Source: Methylomonas methanica (lineage in GTDB: Bacteria > Pseudomonadota > Gammaproteobacteria > Methylococcales > Methylomonadaceae). Taken from it: a stretch of DNA of 64,000 nt. The number at the start of each line of letters is the position of its first letter. Position 1 is the first letter of the stretch. Below the pieces are notes generated by a model. That model searched no databases. It was not told the origin of the DNA and saw nothing but the letters and a program-made list of their open reading frames with translations. The stretch spans positions 62,001-126,000 of the forward strand of contig LUUF01000079.1 of assembly GCA_001644045.1 (NCBI GenBank), read 5' to 3'. This document shows positions 2,158-58,099 of the stretch, in pieces. The position numbers were made by a program, and so were the translations under genes.

Positions 2158-2228
2158 CCGCTCAAGACTGGTAAAATATCCGGCGGTTTGCCTGCGCGCC
2201 GTTGGACTTTGAAACGTAACGGCTGTTT

Positions 2229-3635
<1,407 letters not shown>

Positions 3636-4736
3636 ATGTTTGATACGAACAGCAAAACCATCTTGGTCGTCGACGACTCGCCGGAAAACCTCACCGTCAT
3701 CAGCGAATTACTGCAACCGCAATACCGTGTGCGAGTCGCAACCTCGGGGCAGAGAGCGCTGCAGATGGTTGCCAACCAGCCTTACCCCGATTTGATTCTA
3801 CTCGACGTGATGATGCCGGGCATGGATGGTTATCAAGTGTTCGAGCATCTGCGCGCGGATCCGATTACTTGCACCATTCCGGTGATATTCGTTACGGCCA
3901 TGGACAGTATGGAGTCCGAACTGCACGGGCTGGACGTCGGTGCGGTCGATTACATCACCAAACCTATCCTGCCGCCTATCATTTTGGCGCGCATCCGCAC
4001 CCAGTTGGAGCTGAAGCAGGCCCGGGATTGGCTGCGCGACGAAAATACCTACCTGGAAGCCGAAATAGCCAAAAGGATGAGCGAAAACGAATTGATTCAA
4101 AAAGTCAGTATTCGGGCCTTGGCGCATCTGGCGGAAATCCGCGATCCGGAAACCGGCAATCACATCCTGCGCACCCAAGGCTATGTGCAGCATTTAGCCG
4201 TTGCCTTGCAAGGCCACCCGCGTTTTTCCGCGACATTGACTGATCATTACATCGAATTGCTGACGCGCTCCGCGCCGTTACACGATATAGGCAAAGTCGG
4301 CATACCGGACGCGATCCTGCAAAAGCCGGGCAAACTAACCCGCGAAGAATGGGCGGTGATGAAGACCCATGCCAAATTAGGCAGCGATGCGATAGAAATG
4401 GCCGAACGCGATGCCACGCGCTCGGTGGAGTTTTTGATTCTGGCCAAGGAAATTGCGCATTGGCACCACGAAAAGTGGGATGGCAGCGGCTATCCGGATG
4501 CTTTGGAATGCGATGGGATCCCTGTTTCCGCAAGGATTATGGCCTTGGCTGATGTATTCGACGCGTTGATTTCCCGGCGTGTTTATAAAGAGCCCATGGC
4601 TTTCGATGAAGTTAAGACTATTATTGCCGAAGGACGTGGCCGACACTTCGATCCGGATATGGTCGATGCCTTTTTAGCCGATTTCGATGCCTTCTGCGCT
4701 ATTGCCCAACAACATCTCGATTCAACCGTGGAGTAA
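3636..4736 (+). CDS. response regulator with HD-GYP c-di-GMP phosphodiesterase output (RpfG-like)
   Basis: 366-residue two-domain regulator. Receiver domain at about 8-125 with phospho-acceptor D57 (LLDVMMPGMDG) and conserved Lys in ITKP (K109). HD-GYP domain at about 165-355, with metal-site HD in PLHDIGKVG (216-217), HHEKWDGSGYP (277-287) and the ADVFDALISRRVYK segment. These residues are intact, so activity against cyclic-di-GMP is expected. It opens a same-strand run of seven signalling genes, 7 bases before the next one, and is probably the chemical output of that phosphorelay, since no gene in the run has a DNA-binding domain. Confidence 0.95.
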   Translation: MFDTNSKTILVVDDSPENLTVISELLQPQYRVRVATSGQRALQMVANQPYPDLILLDVMMPGMDGYQVFEHLRADPITCTIPVIFVTAMDSMESELHGLDVGAVDYITKPILPPIILARIRTQLELKQARDWLRDENTYLEAEIAKRMSENELIQKVSIRALAHLAEIRDPETGNHILRTQGYVQHLAVALQGHPRFSATLTDHYIELLTRSAPLHDIGKVGIPDAILQKPGKLTREEWAVMKTHAKLGSDAIEMAERDATRSVEFLILAKEIAHWHHEKWDGSGYPDALECDGIPVSARIMALADVFDALISRRVYKEPMAFDEVKTIIAEGRGRHFDPDMVDAFLADFDAFCAIAQQHLDSTVE

Positions 4737-4743
4737 ATGAGTC

Positions 4744-5664
4744 ATGAATCAAAGCGCTCGCATTTTGTTGGTTGAGGACGAGGAAATTATCGCGATCATC
4801 GTTCAGGATTTGCTGGTCGCAGAGGGCTTTCTGGTGACGGTTTGTGCAAATGGCTTCACTGCCTGGGAAACCTTGCAGCACGACCAAGTCGGTTACGATT
4901 TGGTGCTGCTTGACAGGGGCTTGCCACGGATGGATGGGATGGAACTGCTGAGATTGATCAAGGGGGATAGGGCCTTGGCCTCCATTCCGGTGATTATGCA
5001 GACCGCTCGCAGCGACAAGCAAAGCATACAGGATGGCCTCAGCCAGGGCGCTTACTATTATCTGACCAAACCCATCCAGCCGGAAATTTTGCTGGCAGTT
5101 ATCCATGCCGCTCTGCAACAACGCCATGAGTTGCGGGAAATGCTCGAGAGCGTCAATCGCGCCGAACGGCCGCTGGCTTTCTTGCATTCCGCCGTGTTTC
5201 GTTTTTGCGATCTCGAAGACGCGAAGATGTTGAGTCATTTTTTAGCCCAATCCTGCCCCGAACCTGAACGCGTTATCCAAGGCTTGCAAGAGCTGATGAT
5301 AAATGCGGTCGAGCACGGCAATCTGGGGATTTCCTATGCGGAGAAAGGCGAGCTGATGATGGCGGGAGTCTGGCTGGACGAAGTTCAAAAGCGCCTGAAA
5401 CTCCCGGAATTTAGCCGGCGTTATGTTTCGGTACATTTCCAGCGTCTACCGGATAAAGTGATTTTTACCGTTCAGGACCAGGGCGCCGGTTTCGATTGGC
5501 AGGATTTTCTGGATTTTTCCCCGGAAAGGGTGTTCGATTTACATGGTCGCGGTATTGCGATGGCTAGGCTGATGAGTTTCGATCGTCTGGAATATCAGGG
5601 TAACGGCAATACGGTGTCCGCCGTGGTTAACGGCGTATCTTCCTTGTGCGGCTTCGATAATTGA
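4744..5664 (+). CDS. response regulator fused to RsbW-like HATPase domain
   Basis: 306 residues. Receiver at about 6-125 with D57 (LLDRGLPRMDG) and K109 (LTKP). The second half (about 150-300) is a GHKL ATPase of the anti-sigma/serine-kinase type: N-box LQELMINAVEHGN around N187, then VQDQGAGFDWQDF and a glycine-rich DLHGRGIAM lid. There is no HisKA dimerisation and phosphorylation domain, so it is not an ordinary histidine kinase; family members act as switch kinases or anti-anti-sigma partners. No STAS-domain partner or sigma factor lies nearby, so the target is unknown. Preceded by the HD-GYP gene. Confidence 0.88.
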   Translation: MNQSARILLVEDEEIIAIIVQDLLVAEGFLVTVCANGFTAWETLQHDQVGYDLVLLDRGLPRMDGMELLRLIKGDRALASIPVIMQTARSDKQSIQDGLSQGAYYYLTKPIQPEILLAVIHAALQQRHELREMLESVNRAERPLAFLHSAVFRFCDLEDAKMLSHFLAQSCPEPERVIQGLQELMINAVEHGNLGISYAEKGELMMAGVWLDEVQKRLKLPEFSRRYVSVHFQRLPDKVIFTVQDQGAGFDWQDFLDFSPERVFDLHGRGIAMARLMSFDRLEYQGNGNTVSAVVNGVSSLCGFDN

Positions 5665-5681
5665 TTCGATTTTGCAAGCCC

Positions 5682-7889
5682 ATGCCGTCGAATAACAATC
5701 ACTCAAAACCAGCGCAGGTCAGCCGTAAAAGCATAGTCGCTGTCGTGTTGATATATGCCATCTTCGCGGCCAGCTGGATTTTGGTATCGGATCAAGTGAT
5801 ACACCAGCTTTTCAGAGATCCCGATCAGCTTACTTTAGCCAGTATGCTTAAAGGCTGGGTCTATGTGCTTATTACCTCTTTACTACTCTATGGCTTGATG
5901 CGACGCTGGTTTGGCCGAAGCGCCGAATCGCAAAAGGCTCCTCCCACGCCCCTGCGCCTGCTGTTGTCGTTAGGGTTGTTGATAGCCGTCATCCTGGCTT
6001 TGATGGTGACAAGCCTATTTCTCACGATCGAACAACACACCCAAGAAGAATTCGGCCGGCTGCAGGCAGTCGCCAGCTTAAAGTCCAGGCAAATCAGCGA
6101 TTGGCTTAATGAACGGCGCGGGGATGCGGATTTTATCCAAACCAGCGAATTTTTCATCGAACAGTATCAACACTGGCAGGTCGATGGCGATGTGCAAAGC
6201 GCCGAGCGCCTGCAAAGCCGTTTGGAACAATTTCGTAAAAGCAGGGGAATTTCGGCTATTAGCCTACTCAATCCGCAAGGCGAGCCTTTATGGCGCTCCG
6301 AGTATGCGCCCGCTGCAATCGCGCCCGGGCTTCTGACGGCGGCGCAGTTGTCGACAAAAACTCGGCAAGTCCAATTCGTCAATCCTTATCGGGATAATAG
6401 CGGCCGCGTATTATTGGATTTGGTTGCACCGCTGACCGCGCTACCGGTAGCTGCGCCGTTGATTGTTCTGCATCTTGATCTTAGCGAGTGGCTTTTTCCT
6501 GTTCTGGAGAGTTGGCCGGTGGCCAGCGGCAGCGGCGAAACCCTGCTGTTCCGGCGCGATGGCGATGATATTTTCTATCTGAATCCCTTGCGCTTTCGGC
6601 CGGATGCGGCGGCATCGTTTCGTCTGCCGCTTAACTCCCCAAACTTGTTGGCGGCCAAGGCGCTGAGAAGCGAAGCTAGCCTCGATAACATTCTGGAGGC
6701 CAAGGATTACCGAAATGTCGCCGTTATTGGCCTGGTACAGGCGATAAACGGCACGGATTGGTTGTTATTGACCAAGTTGGATAAGGTCGAGGTCTACGCC
6801 AAGGCCAGGAGCGAAGTGGGTTGGATCGTTTGCGTCGGGAGCTTGACCATTTTTATAGTCTGTGCCGGTTTTTATCTGATGCGGCAGAATCAGAACCTGG
6901 CGTTGGCCACAGCTGTACAGGAGGCTCAAGCGGAGCGCCTGCGGGCGCTGGATTTGTTAGCCGCGATATCCGATTTGTCCGTTGACGCGATATTCGCCAA
7001 GGATCTTGAGGGCCGTTATATTCTGTTTAATACCGCCGCCGCCAATTTTGTCGGCAAACCGGTAGAGGAAGTGCTAGGTCTGGACGACACCACCATATTT
7101 CCGCTCGAGCAAGCCGAGCAATTACGGGAATTTGGCCGGCGGGTGATGGTGGAAAATATCACCTTGACTAATGAAGAAACACTGGACACTCAACACGGTC
7201 CCAGAGTGTTCCTGGCAACCAAGGGACCATTGTGCGACGCGAACGGTAAAGTGATAGGGCTGTTCGGTATCTCGAGAGATATTACCGAACGTAAGCAGGC
7301 CGAGCTTGAGTTACGCGAAAGCGAGGCGCGCTTTCGCGGCTTGGTGGAACAGTCGCTGGCGGGAATTTATATTATTCAGGAAGGGCGCTTTGTTTACGTC
7401 AACCCGGGGTTTGCGGCGATCTTCGGCTATGAACGGGCCGAGGATATTATCGACGGTAAACTGGTGGCGGATCTGGTCTCGCCGCAGGATAGGCAGATGG
7501 TTATCGAGAATTTACGGCGGCGCATCGATGGCGAGATTGGAGACATTAATTACTGCTTTGAAGGCTTACACCGCGACGGGCGCGGCATTGACGTCGAAGT
7601 ACACGGGCGCAGTTTTGTGCATCAAAACCGGCCGGCGGTGATTGGTTTCGTTCTGGATGTCAGCGCCCGCAAAGCCAACGAAGATAAACTCAATCATCAG
7701 GCCGAGGAACTCAAGGCGCGTAACGATCAGTTGGAGCGCTTTAATCGGGCCATGGTTGGCCGAGAGCTGGATATGATTAAACTGAAACAACAGGTCAACG
7801 AGCTGTCTAAGGAGCTTGGCCGGCAACCGCCCTATACCTTGACGTTTCTAAGCGGCGATAGGCAAGCCGCGGAAGCCGGCGACTTATGA
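5682..7889 (+). CDS. membrane PAS sensor protein without kinase domain
   Basis: About 735 residues. Start uncertain: a TTG at 5661 overlaps the previous stop codon, and the ATG at 5682 is taken here; neither has a strong ribosome site. Layout: membrane segments near the N-terminus (AVVLIYAIFAASWILV, VYVLITSLLLYGLM, LLLSLGLLIAVILALMV), a periplasmic stretch of about 270 residues, another membrane segment (IVCVGSLTIFIVCAGFYLM), then two PAS domains ending in DITERKQ and LDVSARK. It ends in a coiled-coil tail, RFNRAMVGRELDMIKLK, and has no HisKA, HATPase, GGDEF or receiver domain. It probably passes its signal to a kinase of the same operon by contact (inference). Confidence 0.85.
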   Translation: MPSNNNHSKPAQVSRKSIVAVVLIYAIFAASWILVSDQVIHQLFRDPDQLTLASMLKGWVYVLITSLLLYGLMRRWFGRSAESQKAPPTPLRLLLSLGLLIAVILALMVTSLFLTIEQHTQEEFGRLQAVASLKSRQISDWLNERRGDADFIQTSEFFIEQYQHWQVDGDVQSAERLQSRLEQFRKSRGISAISLLNPQGEPLWRSEYAPAAIAPGLLTAAQLSTKTRQVQFVNPYRDNSGRVLLDLVAPLTALPVAAPLIVLHLDLSEWLFPVLESWPVASGSGETLLFRRDGDDIFYLNPLRFRPDAAASFRLPLNSPNLLAAKALRSEASLDNILEAKDYRNVAVIGLVQAINGTDWLLLTKLDKVEVYAKARSEVGWIVCVGSLTIFIVCAGFYLMRQNQNLALATAVQEAQAERLRALDLLAAISDLSVDAIFAKDLEGRYILFNTAAANFVGKPVEEVLGLDDTTIFPLEQAEQLREFGRRVMVENITLTNEETLDTQHGPRVFLATKGPLCDANGKVIGLFGISRDITERKQAELELRESEARFRGLVEQSLAGIYIIQEGRFVYVNPGFAAIFGYERAEDIIDGKLVADLVSPQDRQMVIENLRRRIDGEIGDINYCFEGLHRDGRGIDVEVHGRSFVHQNRPAVIGFVLDVSARKANEDKLNHQAEELKARNDQLERFNRAMVGRELDMIKLKQQVNELSKELGRQPPYTLTFLSGDRQAAEAGDL

Positions 7890-10531
7890 ATGGCGTCGAG
7901 CTGTCATCAGGTGCTTTTTCCAACCTAGTACGATTCCGCTATCAGCGTAGGTACAGACTCGCGTATCTATCGGCGGTGGTTCTATCTTTGGTCGCGCTGG
8001 TAATTCGTCTGTATTTGCCGGCATCCTTCGGCGAACGCCCGCTGTTGTTGCTGTTTTTGTTTCCGGTGATCGTTAGTGCCATGCTTGGCGGCTTGGGGCC
8101 TGGATTATGGGCTACCGCAATGGTGGCCTTCGTCACCAATTACCAGTTGATACCTCCTTATCGTAGCGTGGCGATTGCCAGTATTTACGATGTTCTGCAG
8201 TGGACGATGTTAATTGCCAATGGAATTTTGGTTAGCCTGTTTAGCGAATTTTTGCTACGTGCCCGGCAACGTGAAAATGCCCACTGGCAACAGTTATTGC
8301 AAACGCGGGACAAGCTGCGTTTCAGCGAAACCTTGTTTCAGGCCACTTTTGAAAATGCGGCGATGGGGCTTTCCATATTAGCGCCCGACGGTAGTTGGCT
8401 TAAAGTGAATCGCAAATTCTGCGATATCGTCGGTTATAGTCGGGAAGAATTGATAGGGCGCCGTTTTGCGGATATTACCTGTCCGGACGAGCAAAGTACC
8501 GATGCGGATTTCATGCAACGAATGTTGGCTGGCGAGTTGAATCACTTTTCCAGGGAGAAGCGCTTTATTCGCAAGGATGGCAGCATAGATTGGATCAGTC
8601 TCAATGTTTCCATCGTCCGCAAGACGGATGGCAGTCCGGATTATTTTATCTCGGCCATAGAAGATATCGAACAACGTAAACAGGCGGCACTGGCCCTAAA
8701 CGCAAGCGAAACGGCCTTGAAAGTTGCGCAGCGTTTGGCCGGCTTGGGTAGCTGGACTTGGGATTTGCGCACAGGCAAGCACAATTGGTCGGAACAGATT
8801 TATTATTTATATGGTCGCGATCCTAATTTACCGCCAGCCGATTATGACGAGGTTATCCGGTATTTTAAGCCGGAGAGCAGGCAGCGGTTGCATGCTGCCG
8901 TTGCGTTGGCCTGTAGTGAAGGCGTGCCTTATGAATGCGAACTAGAGTTGCAAGGCCATGGCGAGCGGTGTCGTTGGGTGGTTGCCCGTGGCGAGTCCCT
9001 CCGCGATGAGCACGGTAATATCGTGGTTTTGCATGGCACCGTACAGGATATAACGCAGCGCAAACAGGCCGAGCTTGCGCTGCTCGATGCGCAGCGGGCA
9101 GTCCTGGAAACGCAGCGCGAGGCCGGACTCGCCGCGCTCAATTTGATGGAGGATGCCATTTCCGCCCGTCAAGATGTTGAAGTCGCTAACGCATCGCTAC
9201 GCGAAAGCGAAGAATTCAAGCGGGCTATTTTGGATTCGGTGAGCGCCAACATTGCCGTGTTAGACCGTTACGGCGTGATTGTTGCCGTCAATCGGCCTTG
9301 GCAGCAGGTTGCCGACGACAATGCCGACGCCTGCGGGCAATCCCCGGAGCTTTGCGGCGTAGGCACTAATTATTTGCAGGTTTGCCTGCAGGCTTCGGGT
9401 CAGGGGACATTGGAAATATTCACCGGATTGTCGGCTGTATTGGAGGGCCGACTTCCCCGTTTTACGTATGAATACGCCTGCCGCTCCGGACAACAGCAGC
9501 GCTGGTTTGCCATGGTCGTCACTCCGCTGGGCGTCGCGGGAGGCGGGGCGGTGGTTTCTCATACTAATATCACCGAGCGTAAATTGGCGGAAACGGCCTT
9601 GGTCGAGAGCGAGCAACGTTTGCGCTTGGCACAAACTACTGCCAACATCGGTATCTGGGATTGGCATATCGCTAGCGGCAAGGTGCAATGGACCTCAGAG
9701 CTTGAAGCCATGTTTGGTTATGCGCCGGGCGCTTTTCCCGGAGACTATCCAACTTTTTCCCAGCGCGTGCATCCCGAAGATTTGGCGGAGCTGGAACAAC
9801 AGAGAGATTCAGCGGTCGCGGCTCATCTGCCTTTTGATTTAGATTATCGGGTCCAACTCGAATCTGGAGATATCAGGTGGCTAAACTCCAAAGGCGGCGC
9901 CCATTATGACGAAATGGGCAAGCCAACGCGGGTGTTTGGCATTTGCATCGATATTACCGAGCGTAAAAATACCGAAAGCGAGCTCAAACTCTGGGCGCAA
10001 GCCTTCGAAAACGCTGAATTCGGATTGGCGATTGCCGATGCGCAGACTAATTTGTTTTTGGCCGTGAATCCGGTATTTGCAGCGGAGCGCGGTTACACCA
10101 CCGAAGAATTGATCGGTAAACCGGTAATGATGGTTTATCCACCCGATTTAATCGATCAGATCAAACAGCGGATCGAGGTTTTGGACACCACCTGCCATGG
10201 TGTGTTTGAGGCCGAGCATCAGCGCAAGGACGGCAGCCGTTTTCCGGTGATGCTCGACGTTACGATCATCAAGTCCAGCGATGGAAAATCCTTACGGCGT
10301 GTCGCTTATGCCTTGGATATTAGTGACCGCAAGGCCGCCGAAGCTGCTCTGCGAGCGCAAACAGATGCCCTGCAGCGCTTCAACCGGGCCATGGTCGGCC
10401 GCGAAATGGACATGATTGCGTTAAAACAACGCATCAACGAGCTGTCCCGGCAGCTTGGGCAAGAACAACCCTATCCTTTGGCGTTTCTAGACGGGACCGA
10501 AATAGCACCGCAACCGGATGCCCTGCCATGA
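7886..10531 (+). CDS. DUF4118-type membrane protein with about five PAS domains, no kinase
   Basis: 881 residues, overlapping the previous gene by four bases (ATGA). The N-terminal ~110 residues form four membrane helices of the KdpD-like DUF4118 type. About five PAS units follow, several ending in the PAC signature (DIEQRKQ, DITQRKQ, NITERKL, DITERKN, DISDRKA). Between PAS 2 and 3 is a linker [14 protein letters not shown]. The C-terminus repeats the tail of the preceding protein (RFNRAMVGREMDMIALK, then PYPLAFLDG). No catalytic or output domain is present, so it is a pure sensor. Its first PAS is closely similar to a PAS in the following kinase, pointing to local duplication. Confidence 0.87.
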   Translation: MNGVELSSGAFSNLVRFRYQRRYRLAYLSAVVLSLVALVIRLYLPASFGERPLLLLFLFPVIVSAMLGGLGPGLWATAMVAFVTNYQLIPPYRSVAIASIYDVLQWTMLIANGILVSLFSEFLLRARQRENAHWQQLLQTRDKLRFSETLFQATFENAAMGLSILAPDGSWLKVNRKFCDIVGYSREELIGRRFADITCPDEQSTDADFMQRMLAGELNHFSREKRFIRKDGSIDWISLNVSIVRKTDGSPDYFISAIEDIEQRKQAALALNASETALKVAQRLAGLGSWTWDLRTGKHNWSEQIYYLYGRDPNLPPADYDEVIRYFKPESRQRLHAAVALACSEGVPYECELELQGHGERCRWVVARGESLRDEHGNIVVLHGTVQDITQRKQAELALLDAQRAVLETQREAGLAALNLMEDAISARQDVEVANASLRESEEFKRAILDSVSANIAVLDRYGVIVAVNRPWQQVADDNADACGQSPELCGVGTNYLQVCLQASGQGTLEIFTGLSAVLEGRLPRFTYEYACRSGQQQRWFAMVVTPLGVAGGGAVVSHTNITERKLAETALVESEQRLRLAQTTANIGIWDWHIASGKVQWTSELEAMFGYAPGAFPGDYPTFSQRVHPEDLAELEQQRDSAVAAHLPFDLDYRVQLESGDIRWLNSKGGAHYDEMGKPTRVFGICIDITERKNTESELKLWAQAFENAEFGLAIADAQTNLFLAVNPVFAAERGYTTEELIGKPVMMVYPPDLIDQIKQRIEVLDTTCHGVFEAEHQRKDGSRFPVMLDVTIIKSSDGKSLRRVAYALDISDRKAAEAALRAQTDALQRFNRAMVGREMDMIALKQRINELSRQLGQEQPYPLAFLDGTEIAPQPDALP

Positions 10532-13500
10532 AACTTGCCTGTCTGATTCTGTCCTTATTGCTGCCTTTTCTGGCCTTGGCGGTGCAATGGTTATTGTGGC
10601 CCTGGATTAGTCCGTTCGTTTGGTTTCTATTTTTCCCCACGGTGTTTTTCAGTGCTCGCCTAGGCGGTTTCAAGGGCGGGCTGGCCAGCACCTTTTTAAG
10701 CGCTGGCTTTGTCTGGTATTTCTTTATTCCGCCGCAGTTGAGTTGGGAAATGGACAAGCCGGCCAACTTTTATTCGGTTGGCATGTTTCTGATAATGGGT
10801 TATTTATTCAGCGATACCCAGGAACGTCTGCGCCGGGCACAACAAAATACCGAATCCGCTTTAGCCCAGACCAGTGCCGCGAAGGAAGAGGTTACCCAGC
10901 TTTATCAAAAGTCCTTGGAGTTGGATCGGCTCAAGACTGAATTTTTTGCCAATATCAGCCACGAGTTGCGCACGCCCTTAACCTTGATTATCAGCCCGTT
11001 AACCCGGCGACTGGCTTTGGGCCTGTCTGCGGCGGAGCGCGGCGAAGATGAATTAATCCTGCGTAATGCCCGCTTGTTATATCGCCAAGTCAGCGACTTG
11101 CTGGATGTCGCCAAGCTGGAGGCGGGGCACATGGCGGTCGATTATGCGCACATCGATATTGCCGAGTTAACTCGTGCGGTAGCCTCGCAGTTCGATTCGC
11201 TCGCCAAGGAAAAAAATATCAGCTATCTGATAGACGCGCCGGAACCCCTGCCAGCCGAAGCGGACGGCGAAAAAGTACAGCGCGTGTTACTAAATCTGCT
11301 GGCGAACGCCTTTAAATTCACGCCCGATGGCGGAAGCATCCGTTTAACGCTACGCAAGGATGCGGACATGGCCGTTATTGACGTACAAGACAATGGCCCC
11401 GGCATACCCGAGGAGATGCGCGAGGTAGTGTTCGAACGCTTCCGGCAAGTCGAGGGCGGCGCGCAGCGGCGCTTTGGCGGTACGGGTTTGGGATTGGCCA
11501 TCGTTAAGGAATTCACCGAGTTGCATCGCGGCACGGTAACGTTAAACCAGTCAGAGGGTGGAGGGGCCTTATTCAGCATCCTCTTGCCGTTACGAGCGCC
11601 GCAAGGAACTCTGGTTAGAGACACGTCCACGCAGCTTGATCCCAATTTCAATTTGCAAAGTTCCGCTGAAAATCGTTGGCCTTCCCGCCAATTAAGCGTC
11701 GCCGCGCATATAGCCGAAGCTAACGCACCTTTGGTGCTGGTGGTTGAAGACAACGCGGATATGAATGCGTTTATTGTCGATATTTTAAAGCCATATTATC
11801 GAGTCGCCAGCGCTTACGACGGCCGTGAAGGCCTGGCGTTGGCGAGGAGATTGCAACCGGACCTGATCTTATGCGATTTGATGATGCCGTTAATGAGCGG
11901 CGATCAAATGGTTATCGAGTTGCGCAGGCAATCGATTCTGCTGGATGTACCTATTGTGATGCTGACCGCTAAAGCCGACGATGAGCAACGAGTGCGGATG
12001 CTAAATGAAGGCGTGCAGGATTATCTGCTCAAACCCTTTAGGGTGAATGAATTGCTGGCGCGGATTCACGGTTTGATTCAGGTACGCAAAAGGAATGCGG
12101 CCAGCCTGAGTGAAAGTGAGGCGCGCTTCGAAGCCACTTTCGAACAAGCGGCGGTAGGCATCGCGCTGCTTGCCCCCGATGGTCGTTGGTTGCGGGTTAA
12201 CCGTAAACTCTGTGAAATCGTGGCTTACAGCCATGACGAGTTATCGGCGCTTAGCTTCCAGGACATCACGTATCCGGACGATCTGGAAACCGACTTGGCT
12301 TACGTACAGCAATTACTTGCGGGCAAAATCCAAACCTATTCGATGGCGAAACGCTATATCCGTAAGGGCGGTACCCTGGTTTGGATTAATTTGACCGTCT
12401 CCCTGTTGCGTAATCCGGATGCCAGCCCAAGTTATTTTATAGCGGTGATCGAAGACATTACCGAACGCAAACTGATCGAGGAAAGCCTGAATAAATCGCA
12501 GGCCCAGTTGAAAACGTTTATTCAGCATGCGCCTATCGGCATTGCCATGTTCGATAGAGAGATGAACTATCTGTCCGTCAGCGGCCGCTGGCTGGCGGAT
12601 TATGGTCGGGGACATACGGATTTGATCGGCCTGAACCATTACCAGGTCAACCCGGATATGCCCGCCGAATGGCGAGAGATTCATCAACGTGGCTTGAGCG
12701 GTGCCACTATCAAGAATGACGAAGATTTGTGGGTGCAGGCGGACGGCAGTAAACGCTGGCTGCGTTGGGCTGTCTTGCCCTGGACCGACCAGAATGCGGC
12801 GATAGGCGGTATCATTATTTCCACCGAGGATATAACCGACAGAAAACTGGCCGAGGAAGAAATTCGCCGGCTTAACAACGATTTGGAACAACGCGTCATT
12901 GCCAGAACCGCCGAACTCAGCGCCGCGAACCGGGAGTTGGACAGCTTTGCCTACGCGGTTTCGCACGATTTGCGCGCACCGTTGCGAGCCATGAGCGGCT
13001 TTAGCCAGGCGCTTGCAGAGGATTACGGCGCGCAGTTACCAGGCGAAGCCCAAGTTTTTCTGAAACAGATAGAACACGCCAGCAGCAAGATGAGCGAATT
13101 GATCGACGGGCTGTTGGTACTTTCGCGTACCACACGCGGTGTGTTGAAATTTGACCGGATTGACCTCAGCGCCTTGGCGGAACGAGTTTTGGCCGACTTG
13201 CAACGCGATCAGCCCGAACGCCGGCTTAATATTTATGTCGAAACCGAGATGGTGGTTAGCGGCGATAGGCGTATGATCGAGGCGCTGATTCACAATCTCT
13301 TGGAAAACGCCTGGAAATACACCGCCAACACGGAGCAAGCCAACATACGGTTTTATACCGAACTGGCCGATGGGACGAAGCGTTTTTGCATAGCCGACAA
13401 CGGTGCCGGGTTTGATATGGCCCATGCCAGCCGCTTATTCCAGCCGTTTCAGCGCTTGCACCGTCAGGAAGAGTTTCCGGGGATAGGCATTGGTCTGGCT

Positions 13501-49856: not shown

Positions 49857-52229
49857 TCATAAATTACCGTCCGGCAGGTAATCGGTCAGAAATTTTTCGA
49901 ATTCCGCTATCGGCAGCGGCTTGCTGGCCAAATAACCCTGGTACAGATCGCATTGCCGGCTTTTCAGAAAAGCCAGTTGTTCGGCGGTTTCCACGCCTTC
50001 CGCAACCACTCGCATGCGTAGCGTTTTCGCCATGGCGATGATCGTAGCGGTGATTTCCATATCGTCGGTGTGTTTGGGGATGTCTTCAATGAAACTTTTA
50101 TCGATTTTTAAGACGTCCAGCGGAAATAGTTTCAAATAGGCCAGCGACGAATAGCCCGTGCCGAAATCGTCGATGGCCAGATGCACGCCCAAGGCATGCA
50201 GTTTATGCAAAATTTCGATGGCTTCTTTTTCGCGCTTCATCAACGCGCTTTCAGTAAGTTCCAGTTCCAGATACTCGGCCGGAAAACCGGTTTCTTCCAG
50301 AACCTTGGCGACCACATCACTGATGTCGCTATGTAAAAACTGTTGCGGGGATAGATTAACCGCCAGGCGTAAGGGCGGAAAACCGGCCTCGCGCCAGCGC
50401 TGGCCGTGGCGGCAGGTTTCTCTCAACACCCAATTGCCGATAGTAGTAATCAGGCCGGTTTCCTCGGCAATGGGGATGAAGCGAATCGGCGGTATCAGTT
50501 CGCCGCTGGCGGTCTGCCACCTGACGAGGGCTTCGGCTCCCACTATAGCGCCGTTATGAATGCAAAATTGCGGTTGAAAAAATACCCGCAATTCGCCTTG
50601 CTCGATGGCTTGTCGCAGGCGGATTTCAATATCGATGCGTTCTCGGGCCGCGCGGGTTAAATCTTCAGAGAAATATTTGAAACGATTACGGCCCTCGTTT
50701 TTGGCTTGATACAAGGCCGTATCGGCTTGCTGGATTAATTCGTCCGGCGAGGCGCCGTGTTCGGGAAACATCGCGATGCCGACGCTGACGCCGATGCGTA
50801 CCTCATGCCCGCTGGGTAGCTGCCAGGTTTGGTTTAAGGCATTGATGATTTGCGTGGCTACGTGAGCGACGGTTTCCGGTTGGTTGACTTCCTCCAGCAA
50901 CACCACAAACTCGTCGCCGCCGAGTCGGCAAATGGTGTCGCTGGTACGTAGCCGGGTAGTCAGGCGCTCGGCCACCATTTGCAGCAAATCGTCGCCGGCC
51001 AAATGGCCGAAACTATCGTTAACGTCCTTAAAGCGGTCCAAATCCAGCATCAACACTGCCATCTTATTGGCTTGGCGACGGGCTTTCTCGATATTGTGCT
51101 GCAGGCGCGACAGGAACAGCATGCGGTTGGGCAGTTTGGTCAGCGGGTCGTGGTGGGCCAGGAATTCCAGCTCCATTTCCGAAGCCTTCAGCTTGGAAAT
51201 GTCGGCAAACACGCCCACATAATTGCTGATCTCGCCTTTACCGTCGCGCACGGTACTGATGCTTAATAATTCCGGATACACTTCTCCGCATTTGCGGCGA
51301 TTCCAAATTTCGCCTTGCCAGTGGTCGGTAGCATTAATATTGGCCCACATTTCCCGGTAAAAATCGGCGTTATGGCGGCCGGAACTCATGATGCCGGGAC
51401 TATTGCCGATCACATCCTGATTGTCGTAGCCGGTAATATCGGTAAATGCCTTATTGACCATCGTAATCCGGCGCCGGGCGTCGGTGATCATCACGCCTTC
51501 GCGGGTGCTTTCGAATACGGCGGCGGCTTGTCCCAAGCGCTCCTCGTTGGCTTTGATGTCGGAAATATCGGTGATGGTGCCGACGTAACCGCACAATCCG
51601 CCCGCTTCGTCCAGTTCCGGCTCGGCGCGGCCCACCACCCAGTGCACACTGCCGTTCGCCAATTGAAACCGGTATTGCATATTGAAGGGCTGCAAGGCTG
51701 ATACGCAGCGCTGCCATTCGGTCATGACGGATTCGCGGTCTTCCGCAAGCAGCCCGGCTATCCAGCCGTCACCGTGCGAATCAATAAAATGCAAGCCGGT
51801 GATCTCGCACCAGCGGTGATTGACGTAGTCGCATTCACCTTTTTCGTTAGTGCGAAAAATTCCGACCGGGGCAATTTTTGATAAGGTATGGAAGAGTAGT
51901 TCGCTTTCCTGCAACGCGATTTCCGCATGCTTACGGGCGGTGATGTCGCGCAGCCCGATCACGAAGGCCGGCGCGCCTTCCCATTCCAGCGGAGTCGAGC
52001 GCATTTCGGCCCAGGCTATGCCGCTGGGACGAATCAGGTTGATGTCTTGAAATTGAATTTTGTCGGCGGGAATCGGGATCGCCAAGGAATGGCCGATCAG
52101 GCTGCCGCGTTCCAATAGCTGTTCCGCCGCCTGGTTGGCATAAATGACGATGCCTTGCGGATCGACCACCATTACCCCGTCGGTAATGGTATCGAGGATC
52201 AGATTAAGTTGTTTGAGTGTTTGTGGCAT
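49857..52229 (-). CDS. PAS-PAS-PAS-GGDEF-EAL cyclic-di-GMP enzyme
   Basis: 790 residues, no membrane segment. Three PAS domains (about 1-100, 115-235, 240-350; PAC ends DITARKH, DISDIKA, DISKLKA). GGDEF domain with intact GGDEF at 437-441 and the inhibitory I-site RTSD five residues before. EAL domain with E566 (GAEALVRW), DDFGTGYSSLAYLK and IDKSFI intact. Both synthesis and hydrolysis of c-di-GMP are thus possible, with the balance presumably set by the PAS sensors. Last gene of a leftward operon, 20 bases after the REC-KaiB gene. Confidence 0.95.
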   Translation of the reverse strand: MPQTLKQLNLILDTITDGVMVVDPQGIVIYANQAAEQLLERGSLIGHSLAIPIPADKIQFQDINLIRPSGIAWAEMRSTPLEWEGAPAFVIGLRDITARKHAEIALQESELLFHTLSKIAPVGIFRTNEKGECDYVNHRWCEITGLHFIDSHGDGWIAGLLAEDRESVMTEWQRCVSALQPFNMQYRFQLANGSVHWVVGRAEPELDEAGGLCGYVGTITDISDIKANEERLGQAAAVFESTREGVMITDARRRITMVNKAFTDITGYDNQDVIGNSPGIMSSGRHNADFYREMWANINATDHWQGEIWNRRKCGEVYPELLSISTVRDGKGEISNYVGVFADISKLKASEMELEFLAHHDPLTKLPNRMLFLSRLQHNIEKARRQANKMAVLMLDLDRFKDVNDSFGHLAGDDLLQMVAERLTTRLRTSDTICRLGGDEFVVLLEEVNQPETVAHVATQIINALNQTWQLPSGHEVRIGVSVGIAMFPEHGASPDELIQQADTALYQAKNEGRNRFKYFSEDLTRAARERIDIEIRLRQAIEQGELRVFFQPQFCIHNGAIVGAEALVRWQTASGELIPPIRFIPIAEETGLITTIGNWVLRETCRHGQRWREAGFPPLRLAVNLSPQQFLHSDISDVVAKVLEETGFPAEYLELELTESALMKREKEAIEILHKLHALGVHLAIDDFGTGYSSLAYLKLFPLDVLKIDKSFIEDIPKHTDDMEITATIIAMAKTLRMRVVAEGVETAEQLAFLKSRQCDLYQGYLASKPLPIAEFEKFLTDYLPDGNL

Positions 52230-52249: not shown

Positions 52250-52951
52250 TCAAACGATCACGGTCTGCACACCTGTACCAACATTTTGGGTAGTGATTGC
52301 CGCCATTACCGACGACATCCGGGAAAGATCGCCAAGCAGTTTTAACACCGGTTCCGGCAGGTCGCGCACCAGCATCGGCGTCGCAAATATTTCTTTTTCC
52401 AGGGCTTTTTCCGGCATGCCCAGTACTTCGACCACATCGAATACCCAATGGCCCGGCTCGTAAATGCCGGCCAGTACCGCGCTGATTTGTTCGACCAGTC
52501 TGCGGGTTTCCGGATTTAACGACACCACATATAAGGTCAGGACCAGTTTATGGTGGTTAGCCCGGCGCCCTTCGTGGACTTTGGCGATGTGTACGACTTG
52601 CGCGATATTTCTGATTTGCGATGCCGACAAGGGCTTGCTGGCCAGTTCGAATTGCAAGCCTTCCTCATGGGCGTCTTTCAGTTGGTCCATGAATTCGGCG
52701 GCAAAGGCCGTGACAATATAGACATTCAGGCTATTATCCAGCGCCTTCAGGCGGCGCAAGGTTTCCACGCCGTCTATGCCGGGCATGCGTAAGTCCAGGA
52801 ATATCAGATCGGGACGGTCGGCTTCCACCATGGCGATACCTTGCAGACCATTCTCGGCTTCGCGCACATGATAGCCTTCTTCTTCCAGAATCAGCTTGAA
52901 GGCGCCGCGTACCGCTGGGTCGTCGTCAATCACCAGAATGTTGTTTACCAT
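52250..52951 (-). CDS. response regulator fused to a KaiB-like domain
   Basis: 233 residues. Receiver at 1-118: acidic VIDDDPAVRG, phospho-acceptor D53 (FLDLRMPGIDG), Lys K106 (ASKPLS). The C-terminal part (about 136-218) follows the clock protein KaiB from end to end: LTLYVVSLNPETRRLV (KaiB LKLYVAGNTPNSVRAL), then VFDVVEVLGMPE, IFATPMLVRDLPEPV (KaiB ILATPTLAKVLPLPV) and LLGDLSRM (KaiB IIGDLSDR). KaiB-like folds bind KaiC in clocks and form the input domain of SasA kinase. Joined here to a receiver, the domain could be released or masked by phosphorylation. No kaiC lies in the window. Middle gene of a three-gene signalling operon. Confidence 0.88.
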   Translation of the reverse strand: MVNNILVIDDDPAVRGAFKLILEEEGYHVREAENGLQGIAMVEADRPDLIFLDLRMPGIDGVETLRRLKALDNSLNVYIVTAFAAEFMDQLKDAHEEGLQFELASKPLSASQIRNIAQVVHIAKVHEGRRANHHKLVLTLYVVSLNPETRRLVEQISAVLAGIYEPGHWVFDVVEVLGMPEKALEKEIFATPMLVRDLPEPVLKLLGDLSRMSSVMAAITTQNVGTGVQTVIV

Positions 52952-52978: not shown

Positions 52979-55900
52979 CTAATAGTGGGGGAATTTTAAC
53001 CGTATGCAGCAACCTTCGCCAATGCGACTTTCCACTGCTATCGAGCCGCCGGCATCCTGAATCAGTCGGCGAGTGACCGATAAACCCAGACCGGTGCCCT
53101 GACCAGGCGGTTTGGTGGTGAAGAAAGGATCGAACATACGGCTTTGCACGTCATCAGGAATGCCCGCGCCGTTGTCTTTTATCGTCAACTCTAGCATTTT
53201 TTCCGCGGAGCGGACGCTGATTTCAATTTCGGGGTGCTCAATACCGCGCAGCGCGTCGCGGGCATTGATCAATAAGTTGATCAAAATCTGTTGCATACTT
53301 TCCGCAGTACAGGCCAGTTTAGGCAGGTTTTCCGGTATCTCGGTGCGCAGGCCGATAGCGGTTTTGCGTAATTCGCCCTCCAATAGCAGCAGCGTTTGGC
53401 CTAAAACCTCCTCTATCGAGCAACTGCCGGTTTGCGTATTTTTTTGATGCATGAACACCAGCATATTCGAAACGATGTTTTTGATACGCTGAATTTGCTG
53501 CAACGCTTGCGCAAGCACTTGCTTGGACTTGGCGTCTTCGGTGCGGTCCGAGACAAATTCCACGAAGTTCATCACGCCCATCAGCGGATTATTAATTTCG
53601 TGCGCCACGCCGCCGACCAGCGTACCCAGCGCCGACAGCTTTTCCATTTGCAGCATATGATCCTGATTTTCCTGCAATTGTTTGTAAGCCTGGCGGGTTT
53701 GTTCCAGCAGGCGGGCGTTTTCCAACGAAATGGCCGCCTGTGCGGTCAACAGCTCGGTCATGCTGATTTTTTCCGGGGTGAATACGCCCTCCGACAGCCG
53801 GTTTTCCAGATACAGCAGGCCTATCAGCTCGGTTTGTTTGATCACCGGCAAACACAAAACCGAGCGTAAACCGAATGCGACGACCTCGGGAGAGTTTTGA
53901 AATTCGCCCTCGCTACAGGCATCGCTCAGCACGACTTTTTCGTGGGTGCGCTGCACGTAATTGACGATGGCGTGGCAGATATCGCGCACTTTGTTAAGAC
54001 TGTAATAGTGTTTGTGTATCGTGCGTTTTTTACCGACATGCTGCTCGGCGGCAACCAACAATTCGTCATTTTGTTTGATCAACAAATAACCGTGCTGAGC
54101 GGCGGAGCTTTCCAATACCACGGCCATGATTTTTTGCATCAGTTGAGTCAGATCGATTTCCGCCGACAGCGCCAGCGCCGATTTCATCAAATAACTGATG
54201 TCCAGACTGGGCAGCGTGGCGGGAGCAGGCTGGGTTTTGGCTACCCTGGCTCCGGTTTCCGGACTGACATATTGATGGCGTTCCTGCAGTCGGTTGTTTT
54301 TCGCGTCCGCCCGGCATAAACGGTAATGGCGGCGGGCTTCGCCGTAATACAGTTCCGCGTCGCCCAGACGGTGAGTATGCATCAGATCGGCCAGCGTTTC
54401 GTAGAGATGGCCGGTCAGCAGGCCGTAGTTCTGCGCCAACGATAGGGCGATGGCATCTAGGTAGATATTGCGCGCTTCGCGGTATTGGCCCTGCTGTCTG
54501 GCGATCTCGGCATGGATAAACATCAGGTAAGGCTTTAGCAAGGGGCCGAGCAGCGCCCAGGTTTCCAGTTGCGCAAGCACGGGCGCAATCTCGGAATCGA
54601 TTTGCGCGTAATCCGTTTCCGATCTGAGCAGGTTCAAGATCCGAAAGACATACCAGAGACGCTTCAAGATATTGTCGGTTAAACCATGCAAGTAATCTTC
54701 CACGGTTTTTAACGATATGGCCGCGGAACTATAGTCGCCTAGGTAATATTGGGCAAAACCCAGCAATACGAAATAACTGCCGGTAGCGGCGACATAATTA
54801 TTAGCCTGCCAGTCCGCCAGGGTTGCTTGCATCTCGACCGGGCTGTAATCGGGCTTCATGGGTAATACCCAGCCGGCCAGCACCGCCTGCGCCAGGCCTA
54901 TCGAAAACGATAGCTGGTTTTTGCGGGAGAATTGCAAACATTCATCGGCGGCTTCCTCGACCCAGCGCAGGTTTTTACCCTGGACCACTAGATTCCACAT
55001 CAGCGGGCCGTAGGACAAGCCGGCGTTGTATAAATCGCCGCAGTTCTTCCCGGATTGAATGGCTTTGTGCGCGTAATCAACAATATCGGCCGGGTGGCTA
55101 CGCGAGTGCATATTGCACCAGACGATGCCGTTCATGCCTCTGGTGGCGCCGAAGGTGTTGGGGTATTTGGCGCAAAGGTCGTGAGCCAAATCCTGGTATC
55201 GAAACGCCTGCGCGAATTTGCCCTGTTCGCCCAGATTGAGGCCCATGATGGAAAACGAATAAATCACCGATTCGTCCATGCCGCCTTCCAGGCAATGCAA
55301 GGTGGATTGGGCGGCGGATAAATACAGCTGCGGAACCAGGCCGCACATATATAAATCCGGAATCAACTCGCTATAAAAAGCCAGTTCGATTTTGCTCTGC
55401 CGCTGCTCGGTAAACGGCATATTCAGGATTTTCTCCCAGACGTCGTCCTGCTGTTCGATCTTTGACATCAGATTTTTCATGCGTTGCCGGGCTTGCTCCG
55501 GATCGTCTGGAATGGACTTGTTGAAATAGGCCAAGCCACGATTGGCGGTGGCGATAGCTTGCTTGAAATTGCCGAAGGAGGATAACGAAGTGGTCTGATC
55601 GGCCAGCGCTTCGGCTTTATCCAGGTCGCTGACCGCATGTTCGATCAGCCGATTCAACAAGGCTTCGGAACTGTCGTAGCGGCCGCACATCAGATCGGTT
55701 TTCGCCAGGCGTTGGTAAATCCGAAAAGTCAGCGTGTAAGCCGTTTCCCAACAATCGGCCGGCAGGTAATTGTGGGCCTTCAGGAAAAATTCGTTGGCGG
55801 CGTCGCCGGCCAGCGCATCCAGGGCTTTGTTGCCGGCGTTGAAGTTGATATTTACCAACCAGTAGGCTGTTTGTTCATCCAGACTATCCGGGCAACCCTG

Positions 55901-58099
55901 ATTGAGATGGGCGGCGATGGTGAATAAATTATCCAAATTGACCAACTCGGTACCAGGCGGAACCGCAGACAACAAGCGGTTGCCGATGCGCCAATGGATG
56001 CCGGGACGGGACGCGGCGGCAACTTGTTGTAATACCGCTTCCTGCACCCGGTCGTGGACAAACTGCAGGTCGGCTTTATTTTCCAGCAATAGCCCCATGC
56101 TTAATACCGGCTTTAAGTCCTCGAACAGTTGCTCGATGCGCGTATCCAGCACCAGCGCGACATCCTCGGCGGTGAAACGATTGCCCATGCAGGCGCAATG
56201 GTAAAGGATGTGCAAAGTCCGGCTCGGTAGTTTACGCACTTTGGCGCTGAACAGCTCCACCACGCTGGCCGGCATTTGCGTATCGCGGATGCGGTTCATA
56301 TCCCATTGCCAGTGTTGTTTGGCGTCGATACTGAGTAAGCCTTCGTTGTATAACCAGGCCAGACTTTCGCTGACAAACAAGGGGTTGCCTTCGGTCAGAT
56401 GCGCGATAAAGTCGGCCAAATTGGCGGTGGCCTTCAGCGACGAATCCAGAATATAGGCAACCATTTCGTGGCAATCGGCGTCGCTGAGTTCGGTCAGATG
56501 AATCTCGGCCAGCGGGCCGGCGTTTTCTCGTACGCTACGAATCAGTTTGGTCAAGGGATGACCGCTATCGACTTCGTTGTGGCGATAAGCGCCCATAAAA
56601 AACAGGTAGGGGTGTTCGCGCTGATTGGCGAACAGGTTTTGCAAGAAATCGAAGGTGGCGCTGTCGCACCATTGCAGATCGTCGATGAATAACACCAAGG
56701 GATTATCCTCGCTGGCCAGGCAAGCCAGAAAGCGGCCGAACAGATTGTTGAAACGGTTACGGGCTTCTACCGGTGGCAATGGCTGAACCTCGGCTTGCGG
56801 GCCGATGATGAACTCCAGCTCCGGCACCACGTCGACAATTACCCCGCCGGCATTGTCCACCGCTTCCAGGATTTTGGCCGACCAATGCTGAACTTGAGCA
56901 TCGCTCTCGGTCAGAAAGGTGCGTATCAGATTGCGCAAGGCCTGGATCAGCGAACTGTAGGGAATATTTTTTTGGTACTGGTCGAATTTGCCGGAGCTGA
57001 AATAGCCGCGATTTTTTACCAGCGGCTTTTGCAATTCCTGAATCAGCCGGGTTTTGCCTATGCCCGATAGACCGGAAATAAACACCGAACGAAACTGGCC
57101 TTGGGTTACCTGACTATATTCCCGGTGGATTAGCTCGGTTTCGCCTTGCCGGCCGACCATTTTCGAAATGAAAATCACCCGGCGGCTGCGGTCGTGCTGG
57201 CCTATGCCGAAATCGGATACCGTGCCGGTAAATTCGTGTTCTTTCTGGCAGCGCAGCAAGTCCGCCAGCAAGCCGGACGCGCTTTGGTAGCGTTTTTCCG
57301 GTTGCTTCAAGATCAGTTTGGCGATGATTTCGCTCAGCGTGTTTGGAATGCCGGGGCTGATGTCATGGACTTTGACCGCTTCCTCGGCCAGATGCGAGTG
57401 AATCAATTCCAACGGATCGGGGGAAAAAAACGGCAGCCGGCCGGTCAGCAGTTCGTAAAACACGATGCCCAGCGAATATAAGTCGGTGGAGAAATCGACC
57501 CGGTAGTTGATGCGCCCGGTTTGCTCCGGCGAGGTATAAGCGAGCGTGTTGCGGACAAATTCCGGATCGTAAATAAAGTGACTGACATCGCGGATGTCCA
57601 GCGGCGTGATGAAGTCGGTCAGGCGCAGATTCAAGTTGCCGGATTGCACCAAAATATTGTGCGGTTTGATGCCGCCATGGGTAATGCCGGCATCGTGCAC
57701 CGATTGCAAGGTATCGGCCAAGGAGCAGGCTAGCGTAAAAAAATCGGCTAGTTTCAGTGCTTGCTGTTGAGCGATCCAGACATTTAACGGTTGGCCGTTG
57801 AACCAAGGTTGCACGATAAATTGATCGCCGTCGTTGGATTCCAAAGCCAAAGGCGTACAGACGCGCGGGTCGTGCAATACTTTCAGCCGTTCGATTTTTT
57901 GCCGCAAGTGTCGGGATTGGTCGTCCCAACTGGACAATAGTTTCAGGCATTTAACCACCAGCGGGTATTCCGGCACGTGTTTATGATAGCCCTTATAAAC
58001 CGTGGCCTGCAGGCTTTCGCCCAGGTTCTCGATCAGCACATAGCTGTCCAGTTGCGGCGGGTGTTGTAGCAAAACTGTTCTGGTTGTGGTATCGATCAT
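52979..58099 (-). CDS. giant kinase-like / AAA ATPase / GAF / histidine kinase protein
   Basis: 1706 residues. Order: Ser/Thr-kinase-like domain (about 15-285); AAA/predictor ATPase with P-loop GLSGIGKT (343-350) and LVLFIDDLQWCD; a long helical TPR-like middle (about 650-1280); a GAF domain (about 1300-1450); and a histidine kinase with H1500 (GGVAHEINNPLMG), DNGAGIPDD and GQGTGLGLSV. In the kinase-like domain the ATP Lys (K50, VVKCLK) remains, but HRD reads HGG (141-143) and DFG reads DFI (162-164), so it is probably a pseudokinase. First gene of the operon with REC-KaiB, its likely phosphorylation target, and PAS-GGDEF-EAL. Cytoplasmic. Confidence 0.93.
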   Translation of the reverse strand: MIDTTTRTVLLQHPPQLDSYVLIENLGESLQATVYKGYHKHVPEYPLVVKCLKLLSSWDDQSRHLRQKIERLKVLHDPRVCTPLALESNDGDQFIVQPWFNGQPLNVWIAQQQALKLADFFTLACSLADTLQSVHDAGITHGGIKPHNILVQSGNLNLRLTDFITPLDIRDVSHFIYDPEFVRNTLAYTSPEQTGRINYRVDFSTDLYSLGIVFYELLTGRLPFFSPDPLELIHSHLAEEAVKVHDISPGIPNTLSEIIAKLILKQPEKRYQSASGLLADLLRCQKEHEFTGTVSDFGIGQHDRSRRVIFISKMVGRQGETELIHREYSQVTQGQFRSVFISGLSGIGKTRLIQELQKPLVKNRGYFSSGKFDQYQKNIPYSSLIQALRNLIRTFLTESDAQVQHWSAKILEAVDNAGGVIVDVVPELEFIIGPQAEVQPLPPVEARNRFNNLFGRFLACLASEDNPLVLFIDDLQWCDSATFDFLQNLFANQREHPYLFFMGAYRHNEVDSGHPLTKLIRSVRENAGPLAEIHLTELSDADCHEMVAYILDSSLKATANLADFIAHLTEGNPLFVSESLAWLYNEGLLSIDAKQHWQWDMNRIRDTQMPASVVELFSAKVRKLPSRTLHILYHCACMGNRFTAEDVALVLDTRIEQLFEDLKPVLSMGLLLENKADLQFVHDRVQEAVLQQVAAASRPGIHWRIGNRLLSAVPPGTELVNLDNLFTIAAHLNQGCPDSLDEQTAYWLVNINFNAGNKALDALAGDAANEFFLKAHNYLPADCWETAYTLTFRIYQRLAKTDLMCGRYDSSEALLNRLIEHAVSDLDKAEALADQTTSLSSFGNFKQAIATANRGLAYFNKSIPDDPEQARQRMKNLMSKIEQQDDVWEKILNMPFTEQRQSKIELAFYSELIPDLYMCGLVPQLYLSAAQSTLHCLEGGMDESVIYSFSIMGLNLGEQGKFAQAFRYQDLAHDLCAKYPNTFGATRGMNGIVWCNMHSRSHPADIVDYAHKAIQSGKNCGDLYNAGLSYGPLMWNLVVQGKNLRWVEEAADECLQFSRKNQLSFSIGLAQAVLAGWVLPMKPDYSPVEMQATLADWQANNYVAATGSYFVLLGFAQYYLGDYSSAAISLKTVEDYLHGLTDNILKRLWYVFRILNLLRSETDYAQIDSEIAPVLAQLETWALLGPLLKPYLMFIHAEIARQQGQYREARNIYLDAIALSLAQNYGLLTGHLYETLADLMHTHRLGDAELYYGEARRHYRLCRADAKNNRLQERHQYVSPETGARVAKTQPAPATLPSLDISYLMKSALALSAEIDLTQLMQKIMAVVLESSAAQHGYLLIKQNDELLVAAEQHVGKKRTIHKHYYSLNKVRDICHAIVNYVQRTHEKVVLSDACSEGEFQNSPEVVAFGLRSVLCLPVIKQTELIGLLYLENRLSEGVFTPEKISMTELLTAQAAISLENARLLEQTRQAYKQLQENQDHMLQMEKLSALGTLVGGVAHEINNPLMGVMNFVEFVSDRTEDAKSKQVLAQALQQIQRIKNIVSNMLVFMHQKNTQTGSCSIEEVLGQTLLLLEGELRKTAIGLRTEIPENLPKLACTAESMQQILINLLINARDALRGIEHPEIEISVRSAEKMLELTIKDNGAGIPDDVQSRMFDPFFTTKPPGQGTGLGLSVTRRLIQDAGGSIAVESRIGEGCCIRLKFPHY

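Follow-up and report, generated by a model that had tools for sequence, protein, structure and literature searches.

A receiver-KaiB response regulator of Methylomonas and its relatives, conserved in genomes without KaiC and linked to a PAS-headed effector

Introduction

What does a KaiB domain do when it forms the output end of a response regulator? The question is raised by the middle gene of an operon in the stretch of DNA analysed here (64,000 nucleotides, hereafter the window), in which a histidine kinase gene is followed by the gene of a receiver-KaiB protein (REC-KaiB) and then by that of a PAS-headed effector (PAS3-GGDEF-EAL). KaiB is described as a fold-switching protein with two forms, ground and thioredoxin-like, the latter of which binds KaiC (PMC8059507). 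The original prediction for this locus was that phosphorylation of the receiver could uncover or conceal the KaiB fold and tie a two-component signal to a KaiC-like ATPase or another target. The features of the operon are as follows.

52979-58099, minus strand: upstream kinase, 1706 aa, with a gap of 27 nt to REC-KaiB (Pfam)
52250-52951, minus strand: REC-KaiB response regulator, 233 aa (ORF with ATG start, Pfam, phmmer, alignment)
52607-52939, minus strand: receiver domain of REC-KaiB, residues 5-115 (Pfam Response_reg)
52793-52795, minus strand: codon of the phospho-acceptor D53 in the receiver, with companions D9, D10, T81 and K106
52286-52552, minus strand: KaiB domain of REC-KaiB, about residues 134-222 (Pfam 142-212; Pfam, phmmer, profile-profile)
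49857-52229, minus strand: downstream effector, PAS-PAS-PAS-GGDEF-EAL, 790 aa, 20 nt after REC-KaiB
51906-52229, minus strand: PAS1, the effector's first PAS, residues 1-108 (profile searches)

Results

A KaiB homologue behind an intact receiver

The original prediction had described an intact receiver followed by a KaiB-like C-terminal domain, and the profile searches that it proposed bear out both parts. Response_reg (PF00072) matches REC-KaiB at E 2.4e-25, and D9, D10, D53, T81 and K106 are invariant in the 27 REC-KaiB sequences aligned. KaiB (PF07689) matches at E 2.9e-8 with 33.8 bits, above the curated cut-off of 27. The C-terminal 105 residues retrieve the KaiB entry 5jwq when phmmer is run against PDB sequences (E 1.6e-10), and a profile of the REC-KaiB family aligns with a profile of 20 ordinary KaiBs at a probability of 98.6 (E 1.2e-15). 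These matches, together with the invariant receiver residues, indicate that the arrangement is not a product of chance.

REC-KaiB carries the motifs LYV, ATP, LPxP and GDLS common to KaiB. It also has its own signature, made up of the invariant W169, K182, L184 and F189 and the nearly invariant M193, residues that are rare in ordinary KaiB. The hydrophobic positions through which KaiB is reported to contact KaiC (A15, V47, I59 and L60; PMC8059507) correspond to V143, V176, I188 and F189, which are still hydrophobic. Against the clock-KaiB equivalog (TIGR02654), the C-terminal 100 residues reach 41 bits, below the 145.3 required. Judged by its sequence, the domain is a genuine KaiB homologue that lies outside the clock-KaiB equivalog.

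Distribution and conservation of REC-KaiB

The closest named relatives of the window protein come from Methylomonas, the best four at 97-99% protein identity. The operon had been called heterotroph-like in the original prediction; since these relatives are methanotrophs, methanotroph is the better description of its setting. Methylobacter oryzae follows at 75% protein identity. Within the window's family, which we take to be Methylomonadaceae, KaiB matches were found in 45 of 151 genomes and the REC-KaiB form in 27, window's genome included. The 26 other REC-KaiBs fetched align with nearly the whole of the window protein, at 49-99% identity.

The KaiB part is the more constrained within Methylomonas, with dN/dS values of 0.00-0.06 (dS often exceeds 1), and these are lower than those of the receiver in seven of eight pairs, the seven in which both could be computed. 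Elsewhere the relation can be reversed: five loci (L064, L069, L073, L075 and L078) show identities of 55-59% for the KaiB part, versus 71-76% for the receiver. The KaiB part is therefore better conserved than the receiver within Methylomonas, but not always across genera. The regulator alignments (A1 and A2) contain 27 of 32 regulators, near-identical ones having been left out. For the KaiB set (A3), 127 KaiB domains were reduced to 77 at 80% identity, and 67 of these were used with 16 REC-KaiBs. A KaiB tree, built by a short search on 86 columns and with many unresolved forks, placed the REC-KaiBs in one set together with a separate KaiB from a split operon (L082, described below), supported by an SH-aLRT value of 99.

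Outside the family, we saw no REC-KaiB in a class sample of 369 genomes, where the frames of 26 of the 27 fetched loci (L109-L135) were read by eye and L127, which has an internal stop, gave no frame. None was seen in a phylum sample of 398 genomes, among six of the nine fetched frames longer than about 150 aa plus L154 and L165, and L180-L182 gave no match with the REC-KaiB profile. The same holds for the matches listed from a cyanobacterial sample of 194 genomes, from which seven frames of 250-284 aa were read. The best 20 of 1078 plasmid records matched are 25-36% identical and are regulators where annotated, none of them named KaiB. Five of seven non-Methylococcales loci were compared (L049-L053) and gave receiver-only matches (in L053 extending to residue 164) with no match to KaiB. 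By these partial checks REC-KaiB was not seen outside the window's family, although it may occur elsewhere.

REC-KaiB does not depend on KaiC

A KaiC-like ATPase was one of the partners proposed by the original prediction, and the genome-wide search for kaiC that it called for speaks against this. At E 0.001, circ_KaiC (TIGR02655) matches nothing in the window's genome, which measures 5.02 Mb and is 99.98% complete; PF06745 gives incomplete matches there, in frames of 363-520 aa. Of the 27 REC-KaiB genomes, 17 show nothing that scores above 30 bits as KaiC, the window's among them (G114, also in this group, is just 88% complete). The other ten do have KaiC, either on a different contig or no closer than 36 kb to REC-KaiB. 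In contrast, KaiC is matched at E 1e-20 in 34 of the 37 phylum-sample genomes with KaiB (G685 has a fragment only). Since most carriers lack KaiC and the rest encode it remotely, REC-KaiB is not KaiC-dependent, and KaiC partnership as a general mechanism is rejected on the strength of the 17 carriers without a match. With KaiC absent from its genome, the window's protein falls outside the Kai timing system. The wording "or another target" in the original prediction is compatible with these findings.

A stable core with interchangeable ends

In Pfam, the upstream kinase comprises protein-kinase-like, AAA_16, TPR, GAF, HisKA (HEINNP at 1500) and HATPase_c domains, and no receiver domain. Its protein-kinase-like domain has HGG in place of the usual HRD, and DFG is mostly replaced by DFI; of 36 frames examined, all 1600-1800 aa long and some of them near-copies, 34 have HGG and the other two are without the motif. 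The domain is probably a pseudokinase, as judged by these residues. The effector has the signatures RxxD (residue 428), GGDEF (437), EAL (566) and DDFG (687), and its PAS1 is common to effectors beside REC-KaiB and to proteins beside kaiB or kaiBC in other bacteria. Promoter-like and terminator-like sites were no more than at chance level.

A kinase core lies upstream in the window and in 25 of the 26 other fetched REC-KaiB loci, as well as in L082, the exception being L069. Among these 27 fetched loci (26 with REC-KaiB, plus L082), the protein-kinase-like part is absent from L069, L079 and L082. PAS1 is found 17-660 nt downstream of KaiB in the window and in 24 of the 26 loci (25 of 27 with L082). 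It is missing from L073 and L075, whose genomes (G070 and G088) have none anywhere at E 1e-12, so that PAS1 could not be the sole target of REC-KaiB. The effector has both GGDEF and EAL in 17 of the 27 loci and neither domain in eight, in which PAS1 is nevertheless 62-68% identical to that of the window. Six of these eight effectors were scanned with Pfam, and all are PAS-PAS-kinases with HisKA and HATPase_c, five of them with a receiver (the sixth, in L066, is cut by the contig end). The kinase core, receiver, KaiB domain and PAS1 thus mostly stay together, and the sensor and effector ends are interchangeable.

Several loci depart from this layout:

L082, 2765-8259: split operon with an ethylene-receptor-like kinase, a receiver, a chimera of a KaiB half and a receiver, KaiB, and PAS-GGDEF-EAL
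L069 (G048), 1529-10759: REC-KaiB and PAS1 effector together, kinase absent

The kinases of L079 and L082 have DUF4118-PAS and ETR1_N-PAS sensor halves, and the kinase core, receiver, KaiB and PAS1 are kept. L082 is the second locus of its genome (G094). Its receiver (126 aa) and its KaiB (96 aa) are encoded by genes of their own, with the chimera between them and overlaps of 4 nt. No kinase was found within 8.5 kb upstream of the REC-KaiB of L069. In two genomes of one genus (G011 and G079; loci L243 and L244) the regulator has decayed while the PAS-GGDEF-EAL-type effector is still open, with no kinase within the 15 kb fetched. One genome has two small ORFs (103 and 106 aa) between REC-KaiB and effector (L080:7112-7740). 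In another genus of the family, a single 909-aa KaiB-PAS-GAF-GGDEF-EAL chain directly follows kaiB (L183:2600-5326, genome G119). The PAS1 profile gives the PAS of this fusion no more than 10 bits, so the fusion supports a link from KaiB to c-di-GMP and not the PAS1 subtype.

PAS1 is linked to KaiB across genomes

We searched for PAS1 with a profile of 21 sequences (A4; the PAS1 of L063 was left out, as its stretch holds a stop), scoring the best 31 candidates per genome in the family scan and the best 11 in the phylum scan. In a scan of 30 genomes, 25 of the 27 with REC-KaiB had a strong match at the operon, and G094 had a second one at L082; in the window's genome (G000) the operon PAS1 is the single strong match among 116 candidates. 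The 151 family genomes gave 33 matches at E 1e-12, of which 26 belong to operons of REC-KaiB or of L082 (the profile was built from 21 of them), two are at decayed operons, four directly downstream of kaiB-kaiC and one without KaiB. In the four kaiB-kaiC cases the PAS heads GGDEF (G034 and G076) or GGDEF-EAL (G144 and G146). These kaiB-kaiC pairs are of cyanobacterial type and are directly followed by the PAS-headed GGDEF-EAL (L253, L254) or GGDEF (L245, L255) proteins, possibly a clock-to-c-di-GMP output. The match without KaiB, a PAS1-type one of 49 bits, lies in a receiver-bearing protein (L251) of a 63% complete genome (G134) that has no KaiB match.

Leaving aside the window's own genome, the 398 genomes of the phylum sample yielded 56 PAS1 matches at E 1e-9, all to sequences that the profile did not contain, and 45 are within 8 kb of kaiB. 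The 11 others, not near KaiB, are in G681 (C81), G604 (C26:2011, 8.75 kb), G689 (C112), G563, G531, G562, G870, G881, G618 (C191), G660 and G677 (C118). Counted by genome, 26 have both KaiB and PAS1, 11 KaiB only, five PAS only and 355 neither, a co-occurrence with a Fisher value of 3e-27 when the kinship of the genomes is ignored. The kaiB-adjacent cases span 12 genera and 10 families by hand count. Aligned, the PAS1 domains of both sets are short PAS domains with a common EMR...W...LRD pattern.

In two genomes of one genus, KaiB overlaps a PAS-kinase gene (365 or 368 aa) by 4 nt and no KaiC match was found at E 1e-20:

L246:5859-7258 (G694): KaiB and PAS-histidine kinase pair, 4-nt overlap
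L247:5841-7249 (G697): KaiB and PAS-histidine kinase pair, 4-nt overlap

The kinase core in L246 resembles CckA models. In L248 and L252, KaiB and the PAS gene are separated by KaiC, which is read in another frame. Because KaiC stands in this position in most kaiBC operons, the PAS could belong to KaiC there.

Residues that point to a possible fixed fold

The G89A/D91R variant of KaiB is reported to be mostly fold-switched, that is, thioredoxin-like (PMC8059507). None of the 28 distinct REC-KaiBs has G at position 89 or D at position 91; the former is occupied by A, S or I and the latter by T or S (A89 and T91 in the window). By comparison, G89 occurs in 71% and D91 in 60% of 116 ordinary KaiBs. 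Both residues are also absent from the seven elongated KaiBs and six SasA domains examined; the SasA domain is reported as thioredoxin-like (PMC7766417), and an elongated KaiB (KaiB-4 of T. elongatus vestitus) as fold-switched by NMR (PMC10808063). This suggests that the KaiB domain of REC-KaiB may be permanently thioredoxin-like and, instead of switching folds, would be gated by the receiver in one fixed form. Positions 89 and 91 serve only as a proxy for a locked fold, because some ordinary KaiBs also lack G89. In an AF2 model of the full protein, the receiver is well predicted and the KaiB half poorly (pLDDT 46-79 per ten-residue block). The elements of that half end beta-alpha, as in the switched form, at pLDDT 46-62 over the last 60 residues. 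In a fold comparison the model matched receivers, with the KaiB part barely covered.

Discussion

The genes, residues, conservation, KaiC-independence and KaiB-PAS linkage observed here bear on a model in which REC-KaiB would be a KaiC-independent adaptor, relaying a phospho-signal, through KaiB-PAS docking, to a kinase or c-di-GMP enzyme that begins with a PAS domain; we give it a probability of about 0.5. To judge by the operon and the conserved residues, the co-encoded histidine kinase would phosphorylate D53. Phosphorylation would then change the hold of the receiver on KaiB, releasing or presenting the domain; such gating is proposed on the precedent of CikA, whose pseudo-receiver is reported to bind KaiB (PMC12632262). 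The KaiB domain, probably fixed in its thioredoxin-like form, would dock on the N-terminal PAS1 of the effector, as the genetic linkage hints. Docking could set the output, namely c-di-GMP turnover by GGDEF-EAL in the window and a hybrid kinase in several relatives. We infer that control runs from KaiB to effector.

Three other readings have to be weighed. Thioredoxin-like folds can act as docking or dimer domains, and the KaiB domain might likewise be a plain structural output that dimerises or steadies the regulator, the PAS neighbour being incidental. The two REC-KaiB genomes without PAS1 would fit, as would the one genus in which the receiver is better conserved than the KaiB part. We nonetheless consider this reading unlikely, given that within Methylomonas it is the KaiB part that is more constrained and that incidental linkage does not explain a PAS1 type beside kaiB in 12 genera and 10 families. 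A second reading is a feedback of KaiB on its own histidine kinase, as on CikA, tuning receiver phosphorylation while the effector is controlled separately. It would fit the loci where kinase and REC-KaiB occur together and PAS1 is missing (L073 and L075). In G011 and G079, kinase and regulator are both gone or decayed within 15 kb of the effectors, and binding of KaiB by the pseudo-receiver of a kinase has a precedent (PMC12632262). On the other hand, the window's kinase has no receiver domain in Pfam, KaiB is linked to a PAS gene in other bacteria, and L069 retains PAS1 with no kinase beside REC-KaiB, which lowers the likelihood of feedback; we regard it as improbable.

In the third and least probable reading, the domain would act like SasA or KaiB, binding a KaiC-type ATPase in trans and so connecting two-component signalling to a Kai timer. 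The contact positions do remain hydrophobic (V143, V176, I188 and F189), and ten of the 27 carriers have KaiC. Yet in those ten it is encoded on a different contig or 36 kb or more from REC-KaiB, and the 17 others, including the window's 99.98% complete genome, show no KaiC match above 30 bits, leaving this reading very improbable.

REC-KaiB has features in common with several known systems and differs from each of them. With KaiB (PF07689) it shares a homologous domain that keeps the four motifs and the hydrophobic KaiC-contact positions, but it differs from clock KaiB in its place C-terminal to a receiver, its 41 of 145.3 bits and a genome without KaiC. SasA also has a KaiB-like domain within a two-component protein; it is, however, a kinase with that domain at its N-terminus, whereas REC-KaiB is a regulator with KaiB as its output. 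In keeping with this, Pfam places KaiB C-terminal to the receiver rather than N-terminal to a histidine kinase, and the SasA-like proteins scored (L166 and L170) reach 19 bits with the REC-KaiB profile. The seven elongated cyanobacterial KaiBs, which we take from their N-terminal extension to be KaiB-4, resemble REC-KaiB in that KaiB forms the C-terminal end of a larger protein and in lacking G89 and D91, but their N-terminal part, inspected by eye, is not a receiver. Two-component control of GGDEF-EAL enzymes, with kinase input to a c-di-GMP enzyme, is familiar, but here the signal would run via a KaiB adaptor instead of a receiver fused to GGDEF or EAL.

KaiB beside a PAS kinase is already known in purple bacteria: Rhodopseudomonas palustris and Rhodobacter sphaeroides have a kaiC-kaiB-PAS/HK operon (PMC4794148, PMC6627678), in which the KaiB gene adjoins a PAS-bearing kinase gene. 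KaiC is present there, and a receiver-KaiB fusion is absent from the operon as those sources describe it. The original prediction knew of no arrangement like REC-KaiB, and our search of open-licence papers agrees, having found no receiver-KaiB regulator, no KaiC-free KaiB in such an operon and no KaiB-linked PAS subtype.

More tentatively, and with the balance of our expectation against it, the linkage could reflect a general Kai output interface outside cyanobacteria, in which KaiB docks a short PAS subtype in kinases or c-di-GMP enzymes and a receiver has replaced the KaiC timer as the driver in the Methylomonas family. That the PAS of the L183 fusion is not of the PAS1 subtype makes this less likely. 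If it were true, the timer would drive docking where KaiC is present, and elsewhere the clock part would be an ordinary phospho-signal adaptor. Non-cyanobacterial SasA homologues are described as lacking the KaiB-like domain, with a different output pathway expected (PMC5520375).

The KaiB part of REC-KaiB is kept by selection in genomes without KaiC, and must therefore serve another role. Its KaiC-free conservation and its linkage to PAS suggest that KaiB can act as a signalling adaptor outside clocks, and one PAS subtype, linked to kaiB across distant genera, offers a small candidate partner. If the adaptor model is true, it would explain some orphan KaiBs and give a handle on the missing Kai output step outside cyanobacteria. 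In methanotrophs, it would mean that a clock component has been rewired to two-component and c-di-GMP signalling.
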